A stretch of DNA of 64,000 nt from Fasciolopsis buskii (Eukaryota > Platyhelminthes > Trematoda > Plagiorchiida > Fasciolidae): the NCBI GenBank assembly GCA_008360955.1, contig LUCM01008714.1:131764-195763 (forward strand), read 5' to 3'. The notes below the pieces were generated by a model, which was not told where the DNA came from, ran no database searches, and saw only the letters and a program-made list of their open reading frames with translations. Position numbers and translations under genes: made by a program. Below, one piece after another: positions 14-32,618 of this stretch. The first letter of the stretch is position 1; every line of letters begins with the position of its first letter.

Positions 14-134
14 GTCTTGGGGGCGCGGTGGATATGCACTGCTGATGATTCCTAAAAAGGATGAAACAGCTGTACAGTGCTTCCATGGTTTCTTTATGGT
101 GAGTTGAGTGATGATATCACATGGTGAATTATTT
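14..134 (+). mobile_element. SINE copy 1 with hammerhead ribozyme (5' part missing)
   Basis: This block matches the body of the element at 32386-32573 almost base for base from about position 18 up to the shared end motif GAATTATTTCATG. The tRNA-like head seen in the 32.4 kb copy is absent or too diverged; the window edge prevents deciding. The end motif is followed by unrelated sequence, so the element probably ends at the CATG near 134-138. It contains an intact hammerhead core (separate entry). Confidence 0.75.
36..80 (+). ncRNA. hammerhead ribozyme, intact core
   Basis: Stem I is GCACTG (36-41) paired with CAGTGC (75-80), a perfect 6-bp helix. The core CTGATGA is at 42-48. Stem II is TCC (50-52) with GGA (59-61), with a T-T mismatch at the 10.1/11.1 pair. 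GAAA is at 63-66. Stem III is the palindrome ACAGCTGT (66-73). The predicted cleavage site is after GTA, between 74 and 75. All invariant hammerhead nucleotides (C3, U4, G5, A6, G8, A9, G12, A13, A14) are present. Activity is inferred, not shown. Confidence 0.8.
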
Positions 135-273
135 CATGTCTTATTTGTTTATAATCAAACTATATCAGAAAGTTAATATTATGATTGGTAAATGCGTTTG
201 CTGCCACAGGCAGAGATGAATCGACTGACATCGTAAAACCAATAGATATCACATGCTGCTTATGCATACTTAC

Positions 274-3935: not shown

Positions 3936-4949
3936 ATGCCAAAAACTCGGACGAAACGGGATTCAGATATACCACGAGGTTCACAGTATGTGGACGGTCA
4001 GCTAATTCACCTGGCCACTAACCAAAAGCTGTTCGCTCGGACTCACGTGTGCACTGTTTTTCGTGAAACGCTACGAACTTCTGACCAATTTTCCAAGCAG
4101 AATGCAGTCCGAGTAATGGAGAAAAATCTGAAGAAACGGCAAGCCCACGGCATGGCAAACATTTTGGAAGACCGATTCACTTTAGAAAAAGCCAAATCGA
4201 GTGGCAAAGAACCGTTTCGTTCATGGTTAGCGTTTCGGGAAATAGCTGATATTCAGCGGAGCAAATCCAAACCCGAATACTTTGTCATGAGCGTTGACTC
4301 TGAACTGAGTCACCAGAAATACTACGAGGTGTACAAGTGCAAATCAAAGGAAGATGCCTACAAATTCGAGTCGTTTATCAAACAAGCATTGGCCGATCCA
4401 GATTTTCGAGTCCGCGACGGGCCGGTGCTAGATGTTGTTCCGGTCAACGAGGATCCAGGCCGAGTACGTTCTATTGCACACTTGGAATTCCAAACCAGTT
4501 TGGAATCACTTCATGAGAACGAGCGAACAAGCACCATGTATCAAGCTACAAGTCCTACACCACCAATGGGGTACGATCGTGAACCTTCACCTCTACCCTC
4601 GCCATCGCCATCGCCACCACCTGTGCGAGTCCGCACTCCGATTTCACCAGTCGTACAAAGACAACCGGTTGTTATGGCTGCTGCCCCGGCCCCAGTGTAC
4701 GAACCATCACCACCGCCAAAACGCCGATCTCCGTCACCAGACTATCGGATGACCAGAACCAAGGTCGGTCTTGATGACCTAACTTACATCAGCTTTGATT
4801 CACGAACAAGGAATCCATATGAGAGCAAGGAAGGGCCCGTATACATGTATCTATCACGCCAATTGAGTCAACCGGATCTTGGCCGAGAGTCACCCAAATA
4901 TTCAACCGGCTTGTACAATGGACGTGCTTCGGGAGGCTATGCGTACTAG
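3936..4949 (+). CDS. PTB/PH-like domain protein with Pro/Ser-rich tail, single exon
   Basis: A 337-codon uninterrupted frame, by far the longest in the window. The ATG at 3936 is the first Met after an in-frame TAG fifteen codons upstream. Residues about 30-152 look like a phosphotyrosine-binding/PH-type fold: a basic, strand-rich stretch with WLAFREIADIQRSKSKPEYF (97-116), then YYEVYKCKSKEDAYKFESFI (129-148), which resembles the last strand and C-terminal helix of PTB domains. Residues about 205-270 are Pro/Ser-rich with PSPSPSPPP and KRRSPSP, suited to SH3/WW binding or phosphorylation. The last 60 residues are Tyr- and Ser-rich. No signal peptide or membrane segment, so probably a cytoplasmic adaptor. 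The absence of introns is unusual beside the rest of the window; a retrocopy or a lineage-specific intronless gene are both possible. No AATAAA was seen in the first few hundred bases after the stop. The domain call is inference from pattern; the gene call is strong. Confidence 0.85.
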   Translation: MPKTRTKRDSDIPRGSQYVDGQLIHLATNQKLFARTHVCTVFRETLRTSDQFSKQNAVRVMEKNLKKRQAHGMANILEDRFTLEKAKSSGKEPFRSWLAFREIADIQRSKSKPEYFVMSVDSELSHQKYYEVYKCKSKEDAYKFESFIKQALADPDFRVRDGPVLDVVPVNEDPGRVRSIAHLEFQTSLESLHENERTSTMYQATSPTPPMGYDREPSPLPSPSPSPPPVRVRTPISPVVQRQPVVMAAAPAPVYEPSPPPKRRSPSPDYRMTRTKVGLDDLTYISFDSRTRNPYESKEGPVYMYLSRQLSQPDLGRESPKYSTGLYNGRASGGYAY

Positions 4950-31960: not shown

Positions 31961-32004
31961 ACTGTATCCTTGATGCATTTTAGTAGTAGGAGATTGAATG
32001 TTTA

Positions 32005-32177
32005 CATGAAATAATTCACCATGCGATATGATCGCTCAACTCACCATAAAGAAACCATGGAAGCACTGTACAGCTGTTTCATCCTTGTTAGGAATCATGA
32101 GCAGTGCATATGGACCGAGCCCGAACTGGGACGCTAACCCGGGACGAACGATTCTGAGTCGCACGTCATTACGCTAC
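32005..32177 (-). mobile_element. SINE copy 2, inverted, hammerhead inactivated
   Basis: The reverse complement matches the forward copy at 32386-32573 from GGTAGCGTAATG (A box) through the B box (GGTTAGCGTCC, 32139-32129), hammerhead region and GAATTATTTCATG end. It lacks the first eight or so bases of the head. The B box has a mismatch (A for C) relative to the other copy, consistent with an old, silent insertion. Confidence 0.8.
32063..32107 (-). ncRNA. hammerhead ribozyme, mutated core
   Basis: Stem I (GCACTG with CAGTGC), stem II and palindromic stem III are all kept, but the core reads CTCATGA rather than CTGATGA (32101-32095). This changes invariant G5, which is essential for hammerhead cleavage, so the copy should be inactive. 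Confidence 0.75.
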
Positions 32178-32395
32178 CATGTAAACATTCTATCTCCCAC
32201 TACTAAAATGTATCAAGTAATCAAGCTCTGTAGGTCATATCCAAAGCCGTCGTCGTACTTAGGCTACCTGCACAGAATTCATCTATCAGTAGGGGTCGAT
32301 CGCTGTGAGCTAACGGACAGTAACCGTGCAAACCAGTGACGGATAGGTGCAACATCATGTGGTGAAGTTCAACAAACCGTTCACAGCCTGCCCGG

Positions 32396-32449
32396 TAGCG
32401 TAATGGCTAAGGCGTTTGACTCACAATCGTTCGTCCCGGGTTCGCGTCC
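32396..32449 (+). promoter_or_regulatory. internal pol III promoter (A and B boxes)
   Basis: A box TAGCGTAATGG and B box GGTTCGCGTCC, 32 bases apart. The B box has one deviation from GGTTCGANTCC. The spacing is as in tRNA genes. Confidence 0.65.
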
Positions 32450-32470
32450 CAGTTGGGGCGCGGTGGATAT

Positions 32471-32515
32471 GCACTGCTGATGATTCCTGACAAGGATGAA
32501 ACAGCTGTACAGTGC
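32471..32515 (+). ncRNA. hammerhead ribozyme, intact core
   Basis: Stem I GCACTG (32471-32476) with CAGTGC (32510-32515); core CTGATGA (32477-32483); stem II TCC/GGA with a 6-nt loop TGACAA; GAAA at 32498-32501; palindromic stem III ACAGCTGT; cleavage expected between 32509 and 32510 after GTA. It differs from copy 1 only in the stem II loop, as expected of a structure under constraint or of a recent common source. Confidence 0.8.
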
Positions 32516-32618
32516 TTCCACGGTTTCTTTATGTTGAGTTGGGCGATCATATCACATGGTGAATTATTTCATGAAAACATTCAATCTCCTACTACTAACA
32601 TGTACCAAAATAAGTATC

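Follow-up and report, generated by a model that had tools for sequence, protein, structure and literature searches.

The window analysed here, a stretch of 64,000 nt of the Fasciolopsis buskii genome, contains on its forward strand a tRNA-like region that has both an A and a B box and, downstream of it, a type I hammerhead ribozyme motif. The 188-bp stretch at 32386-32573, which an earlier note on this DNA had delimited as a tRNA-derived SINE carrying a hammerhead ribozyme, turned out to be part of a 392-bp repeat unit (400 bp in some arrays); those bounds did not hold, as sequence of the unit covers 32178-32608 and position 32573 is the end site of many copies. Positions in the unit (u) are counted along a reference unit taken from a tandem array elsewhere in the genome (locus L009, 2136-2527). 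The features in the window are the following:

20-139 (+): copy C (u146-265), with 99% identity to the unit and an intact hammerhead core, ending at site 1
31969-32178 (−): copy B, u85-300, inverted, 90% identical to the unit, head-to-head with the copy A side
32178-32309 (+): linker portion of the unit (u261-392), immediately preceding copy A, 94.7% in a BLAST search with the 392-bp unit
32311-32608 (+): copy A, u2-299, 97.0% identical to the L009 tandem unit
32386-32460 (+): tRNA-like region, with boxes read in the sequence and an Rfam tRNA match of 19.5 bits at 32390-32460, below the gathering score of 29
32396-32406 (+): A box, TAGCGTAATGG, read in the sequence
32439-32449 (+): B box, GGTTCGCGTCC, read in the sequence
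32471-32515 (+): type I hammerhead motif, from the motif search, sub-threshold Rfam matches and the alignment
32471-32476 / 32510-32515 (+): hammerhead stem I, 6 perfect pairs
32477-32483 (+): hammerhead core CTGATGA, read in the sequence
32485-32488 / 32493-32496 (+): hammerhead stem II, read in the sequence
32498-32501 (+): hammerhead GAAA, read in the sequence
32501-32508 (+): hammerhead stem III, the palindrome ACAGCTGT, read in the sequence
32509/32510 (+): predicted cut, at a GTA cleavage site read in the sequence
32570-32573 (+): site 1, CATG, u261-264, the end of most single-orientation insertions and of one arm of most inverted pairs
32574-32608 (+): A/C-rich tail, u265-299, whose end is site 2 (u287-295 in most other loci)

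Along the unit, the tRNA-like part starts at u77, the A box at u87, the B box at u130 and CTGATGA at u168, the predicted cut follows u200, and beyond the CATG of site 1 the linker extends to u392. The linker sequence at 32178-32309 begins at the head-to-head junction with copy B, and an assembly gap lies just upstream of copy C. We also considered a DNA transposon bounded by the 40-bp inverted repeats 31969-32008 and 32178-32217 and rejected it; these repeats are the tails and linkers of the head-to-head copies. Elsewhere in the window, at 3936-4949 (+), there is an intact reading frame of a trematode PH-like family (PF25356), the product of which is 82% identical to a protein of Fasciola hepatica and 81% to one of Echinostoma caproni, which makes an echinostomatoid fluke and not Schistosoma the most likely host; single further flukes, Calicophoron daubneyi for example, have several related proteins.

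The tRNA-like part and the hammerhead motif

The A and B boxes, the stems, CTGATGA, GAAA, the palindrome, the GTA and the cut at 32509/32510 were all found where the earlier note had placed them, and with every named part present the hammerhead motif of the window is confirmed as a genuine observation. CTGANGA, GAAA, an NUH site and three stems with stem I open form the type I pattern at 32471-32515, from which the window copy departs at the base of stem II, where U faces U (32484/32497, pair 10.1-11.1). Since the perfect palindrome of stem III leaves no space for a loop, the hammerhead is expected to fold well only between two copies; in RNAfold the monomer preferred another structure, and the two-strand fold gave stems I and II with stem III formed between the strands. 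The tRNA homology with both A and B boxes that characterizes a tRNA-derived SINE is present, the B box differing from the consensus at a single position. The tRNA-Val label given earlier did not survive, as the anticodon loop differs among members (CTCACAA in the window copy versus CTCAAAA in L079). ARAGORN detected no tRNA, either in the window or in eight other loci, and the Rfam tRNA model scored 23.7 bits in the unit and 34.8 bits in L079 (gathering 29).

In the Rfam check that the earlier note had proposed, nothing in the whole window reached a gathering score; below it lay Hammerhead_HH9 with 21.6 bits (E 0.012, gathering 52) and, antisense to the tRNA-like part, Plastid-ycf2 with 27.1 bits (gathering 65.7). 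Against the gathering score of 34, Hammerhead_1 gave 26.7 bits in each of four tandem units and 33.9 bits in five members of the same family (L074-L078) in which G replaces U at the stem II base to give a G.U pair. These five belong to the eight matches of a genome search with this model, in which 73 of 111,921 first-look candidates were scored; two others (L079 and L080, 33.8 and 33.0 bits) are older members of the family, and the matches of family members at 33-33.9 bits have E values of 4.5e-6 to 8.5e-6. Only the eighth, L073, passed the gathering score, with 35.4 bits. It is a different, sister element, 74% identical over 39 bases, with the B box GGTTCAAATCC, CTCGAG as the palindrome of stem III and a GTC cleavage site.

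In an alignment of 12 sequences (8 distinct), 94.6% of the cells in the stems were paired, and five pairs were changed on both sides, distributed over all three helices; shuffled controls had 1.0 such pairs on average, with 1 of 500 reaching five, and slid controls had none. Eight of the 12 sequences (L073-L080) had been chosen with the structure model, and the alignment leans towards the structure to that extent. Without L073, seven distinct rows remained, with 94 of 98 cells paired and one double-changed pair (in L080). Because the five double-changed pairs thus drop to one, the covariation lies between the family and its sister L073 and not within the family.

A hammerhead-like motif arisen by chance, with no ribozyme behind it, would agree with the sub-gathering scores of the window, with the U.U mismatch that the window copies have at the stem II base and with the single double-changed pair of the family proper, the others coming from the sister. 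We hold it to be very improbable: the strict motif occurs twice on the forward strand of the window (and not on the reverse strand) versus five times in 12,253 simulated Markov-1 windows searched on both strands, other family members score far closer to the gathering score and L073 exceeds it, and with L073 included compensated changes fall in three stems. The hammerhead of an axolotl retrozyme is, moreover, reported to have a U.U at its helix II base (PMC7229834, available in part).

Two further relatives were seen. An old relative at L011:3745-3860 (−), 74% identical, has the stem II strands TTTC/GAAA with a U-A pair at the base. L073 itself (L073:120-250, that is, G000:C888:33769-33899) is a second tRNA-plus-hammerhead element with TTG in the anticodon-loop region, resembling tRNA-Gln; SM-alpha is reported to be tRNA-Gln-TTG-like (PMC2770079, available in part). 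It is possibly the fluke counterpart of SM-alpha, with one copy seen.

Copies of the unit and the state of the ribozyme core

We searched the assembly (703 Mb, 6974 contigs) with the 188-bp stretch, which yielded 45 stretches of 92-100% identity (best 40 of 3364 first-look candidates scored), and with copy B, which yielded 46 stretches (best 40 of 2994 candidates scored); the window's contig was the only one common to both. Both samples consist of best-scoring copies, not random ones, and give no copy number. The unit occurs in tandem arrays, as single pieces and in head-to-head inverted pairs: several matches of the first search belong to inverted clusters or to tandem arrays whose units are spaced at 392 bp, and some arrays of the second search have a spacing of 400 bp (contigs C6344 and C2990). 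In L009, three units and a partial fourth follow one another and differ only by one base and a 3-base insertion. The full units of each array in L010, L011 and L012 have a common set of variants, in L012 on both arms, and some of these variants are present in other loci too; the units of L015 differ from one another.

The longest stop-free stretch listed in a unit has 62 codons, with no coding region for a reverse transcriptase or a GIY-YIG endonuclease, and the unit is therefore not an autonomous Penelope-like element (PLE). The antisense translation of the element had three short relatives in a protein collection, and an exact pattern of the element had no match in viral or in prokaryote contigs, each searched with one pattern. 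Neither A nor T runs exceed 3 in the unit; there is thus no simple Pol III terminator inside an array, a lack that base content could produce by chance.

The conservation of the core residues on which the earlier note's reading depended was borne out among the copies closest to the query and failed beyond them. In the first sample, which is made up of those closest copies, the hammerhead was identical in 34 of 41 copies, with 2 mismatches in 598 positions over 13 core letters. In the second sample, mismatches amounted to 18/298 in the core versus 14/721 in the hammerhead stems and 297/6362 in the rest of the unit. The fifth core position, which is essential in hammerheads, is changed from G to C in 8 of 19 copies, from 6 of 12 loci (L063, L064, L065, L066, L071, L072), and the eighth is likewise changed from G to C in 5 of 19 copies from three loci (L061, L066, L072). 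A change of G8 to C reportedly abolishes hammerhead cleavage (PMC11167929). The cores in L061, L063-L066, L071 and L072 accordingly read CTCATGA, CTGATCA or CTCATCA, many of them with GGTCC in place of GGTGG, and their stems persist; copy B of the window has CTCATGA as well (32063-32107, −).

That identical changes occur at separate loci, and in copy B of the window as well, suggests that the element was mobile in a core-mutated state, with changes after insertion as a further possibility. The two arms of a single insertion may also differ: L061, L063 and L064 each have CTGATGA on one arm alone, and the arms may therefore derive from different units or RNAs. As core-mutated copies lie in several loci and none of the 15 single-orientation insertions described below begins at the cut, cutting by the ribozyme need not be essential to mobility.

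Target-site duplications and paired 3′ ends

The insertions of the element are accompanied by target-site duplications. Direct repeats of at least 9 bp flank 17 of the 28 composites of the first sample, one of them (L022) being a match inside the element, which leaves 16, compared with 19 of 756 mismatched flanks combined from different loci. The duplications are about 8-13 bp long, and 17 that were trimmed by hand have a mean of 10.4 bp and an A+T content of 78.5%. In L009, the three units and the partial fourth lie together inside a single duplication, TATTCTAG.

Copies end mainly at one or the other of two sites. Site 1 lies about 64 nt past the predicted cut and site 2 about 87-95 nt past it, a distance of 23-31 bp between them. 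Of 15 single-orientation composites, 12 end near site 1 (L010 less exactly) and three in the tail (L013, L026, L028). Their 5′ ends are scattered over the unit, those of L010 and L011 adjoining an N, and with 0 of 15 at the cut the insertions lend no support to the earlier suggestion that self-cleaved monomers serve as the template for retrotransposition.

In the inverted pairs, most outer edges are 3′ ends of the unit and fall into two classes, about u258-268 and u285-305. Twelve of the 16 pairs with a duplication have one arm of each class and none has two of a kind (permutation P 0.0009; arm classes assigned by hand, with the short tail arm of L021 and the duplication of L062 judged by eye, and a second-sample query that carried the tail and favours tail arms); in the remaining four (L012, L030, L033, L067) one arm ends elsewhere. 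L065 (an adapter chimera), L066 (which runs off its locus) and L069 (broken up) were excluded from the pairs. The pattern is also present in the first sample alone (8 of 11 pairs, P 0.011) and without the adapter-bearing L021 (11 of 15, P 0.0018). Several composites contain N, namely long runs in L014 and L018 and one N each in L012 and L015. In the cleanest subset, without L021, L012, L014 and L018, 9 of 12 pairs have one of each (P 0.006), or 9 of 13 with the window pair added (P 0.017). Both arms of the window composite (copies A and B) bear the tail, and its edges lack a clean duplication; among the other pairs lacking a duplication, L071 has one of each, and one arm of L072 and of L017 ends elsewhere. 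When these four are added, 13 of 20 pairs have one of each and one has two of a kind (P 0.0013). L021:1730-1748 and L065:584-622 contain sequencing-adapter sequence (CTGTCTCTTATACACATCT and its reverse), which marks chimeric joins of the assembly.

This structure, with two 3′ end sites, one of each in inverted pairs and short duplications, is that of Penelope-like insertions. Penelope insertions have inverted pLTRs, an optional 31-bp tail on one inverted pLTR and duplications of 8-10 bp (PMC3846280, available in part). In the PLE of the anole, both target strands are cut and extended, and the tail corresponds to the sequence that separates two start sites; reverse transcription begins internally, in an AC-rich stem-loop of the RNA located 111-118 nt into the ORF, and the hammerhead cut is at +26 (PMC11167929). 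Its start thus lies 85-92 nt past the cut, compared with the 64 and 87-95 nt of the fluke unit.

A GIY-YIG search of the F. buskii genome gave two matches, of which L038 (Pfam GIY-YIG, 28.5 bits) reads, from its sequence, as a putative PLE endonuclease; other GIY-YIG matches with very long open frames (C6925, C1416) were discarded as assembly gaps. The L038-type family had 150 matches among 150 scored of 3541 first-look candidates. Its 3′ ends lie 53 bp apart, with 10 distinct short, 12 distinct long and 3 elsewhere as counted from the fetched loci, and three of the four head-to-head pairs visible in those loci have one of each (C6338, C4434, C4953); in the fourth, L048, one arm is short and the other stops far short. 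As read by eye, a hammerhead-like CTGACGA...GAAA is located about 40 nt before the short end, and Rfam gave nothing at E <= 1 on three PLE loci, this motif included. The PLE loci L040-L058 often end beside TA microsatellites and carry CTGACGA...GAAACGT before the two end sites (for example L051:2073-2200), and an ATG in GATGAAAC starts an open frame at the hammerhead-like motif. A second CTGATGA...GAAA, on the strand opposite the endonuclease, was set aside as coding-region sequence.

BLAST of the unit against 20 loci of this one PLE family gave nothing at E <= 1. The alignment of the tail with the PLE tail was matched by 12 of 1000 shuffles, and that of the longer stretch from hammerhead to tail by 65 of 400, which is not significant. 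The tRNA-hammerhead unit and the PLE family examined have a common way of ending and no common sequence.

Candidate machinery and relation to known elements

We consider it likely that the element is a non-autonomous metazoan retrozyme with SM-alpha-like logic and a Pol III-type promoter, copied in trans by PLE machinery. Pol III or read-through transcription of arrays would give multi-unit RNA, part of which the hammerhead may trim or circularise. A PLE enzyme, with its reverse transcriptase and GIY-YIG endonuclease, might bind the RNA downstream of the ribozyme and cut both strands of an AT-rich target, and reverse transcription would begin at two fixed internal sites, site 1 and site 2. Priming on one strand would produce single-orientation insertions, mostly ending at site 1, and priming on both strands would produce head-to-head inverted pairs with one arm per site. 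We infer transcription, cutting, circularisation and the PLE identity of the machinery from the anatomy of the copies and from work on retrozymes (PMC7229834, available in part), and the observations beneath them are the unit, the motif, tandem and inverted insertions with duplications, the paired end sites and the same signature in a PLE family.

Other routes share part of this evidence. An ordinary tRNA-derived SINE moved by a LINE would account for the tRNA-like head with A and B boxes and for the scattered 5′ ends, as well as for duplications of a length within the range of LINE target-site duplications; the inversions would then be due to twin priming, the arrays to unequal crossing-over or satellite-like amplification, and the hammerhead would be a passenger. 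Twin priming, however, produces an inverted 5′ segment that starts inside the template and not at a second fixed 3′ site, whereas both outer edges of the fluke pairs are mostly 3′ ends of the unit, paired one of each; with a whole tandem array inside one duplication in L009 and no A run over 3, we regard this explanation as unlikely. Circular RNA could also be involved, 392-nt monomers being cut, ligated and copied by rolling reverse transcription into identical tandem units, a route compatible with PLE machinery. The near identity of the L009 units, the common variants of the L010, L011 and L012 arrays and the 5′ ends located anywhere in the unit agree with it, and animal retrozymes of about 170-400 nt occur as circular RNA (PMC7229834, available in part). 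Yet a tandem-array transcript would yield an identical picture without circles, a single circle predicts arms alike in their cores, unlike those of L061, L063 and L064 unless they mutated later, the L015 units differ, core-mutated copies occur in several loci, and hammerhead mutants of the anole PLE insert without change in vitro (PMC11167929); we think such circles possible, with a probability well below even.

The unit might instead be an internally deleted PLE that inherited hammerhead, tail and ORF start from an autonomous PLE of the genome and acquired a tRNA promoter. The order of a hammerhead followed by two end sites is as in PLEs, the ATG in GATGAAAC is equally placed in the hammerhead of the unit and that of the PLE (read by eye), and an open frame with one stop runs from the hammerhead into the linker, but no DNA similarity was found to the one PLE family examined, and we view this origin as possible and rather doubtful.

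The preferred reading, a retrozyme copied by PLE machinery, places the unit among several known elements. SM-alpha reportedly has a tRNA-like promoter ahead of its hammerhead, and the SM-alpha-like logic that the earlier note had recognized is borne out by the architecture of promoter and type I hammerhead. SM-alpha and Sj-alpha are SINE-like trematode elements with a type I hammerhead and a high copy number (PMC2770079, PMC8490949, both available in part), to which the fluke unit is alike in being a SINE-like trematode element with such a hammerhead; by description it is set apart by the other fluke group, the loopless palindromic stem III, the GTA cut and the 392/400-bp unit. The earlier description as a SINE with a ribozyme was right in placing a type I hammerhead and a tRNA-like promoter of Pol III type on one element, but it is not a simple SINE, being a 392/400-bp tandem and inverted unit with PLE-type ends. 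Its standing as a possibly new family fits the lack of any name for it in the open-licence literature searched.

Metazoan non-LTR retrozymes consist of tandem units 150-450 bp long that are non-coding, low in G+C and equipped with a type I hammerhead; their duplications exceed 4 bp, and platyhelminths are among the reported hosts (PMC7229834, available in part). The fluke unit is likewise a tandem non-coding unit of such length, each with a type I hammerhead, and has insertion duplications. Retrozymes have been described, in the available part of PMC7761336, as without a promoter and without a conserved motif that would indicate a partner, in contrast to the tRNA-like promoter and PLE-type ends of the fluke unit. 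With Penelope/Poseidon elements that have a GIY-YIG domain it shares tandem and head-to-head arrangements, an optional tail on one arm, short AT-rich duplications and a hammerhead 5′ of the starts, and it differs from them in lacking reverse transcriptase and endonuclease coding, in its tRNA-like promoter and in the lack of a match to the one PLE family. Helenus and Ajax also are non-LINE retroelements with small-RNA-gene-like sequence, but these are LTR retrotransposons (PMC10886601, available in part). In the open-licence literature we found neither a retrozyme or SM-alpha-type element that shows the end signature of PLEs nor a hammerhead SINE in Fasciola or Echinostoma.

PLEs have been named, on indirect grounds, as strong candidates for the mover of animal retrozymes (Cervera and de la Pena 2020, PMC7229834, available in part); the fluke insertions carry a mark that points to the machinery. 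Going beyond this genome, we tentatively propose, at somewhat less than even probability, that animal hammerhead retrozymes, including those of the SM-alpha type, are parasites of PLEs, in which a tRNA-derived Pol III promoter is joined to a PLE-recognised module of hammerhead plus start site, the ribozyme being an inherited recognition part that acts as a fold more than as a cutter. Such a role would explain why the stems are better conserved than the core in the second sample. If this is true, inverted insertions record the two fixed start sites as one short and one long arm, a signature that can be searched for in any genome with retrozymes or SM-alpha. The finding connects the SINE-like hammerheads with those of PLEs, two sets usually treated apart, and offers many natural insertions in which the start of PLE reverse transcription can be studied.
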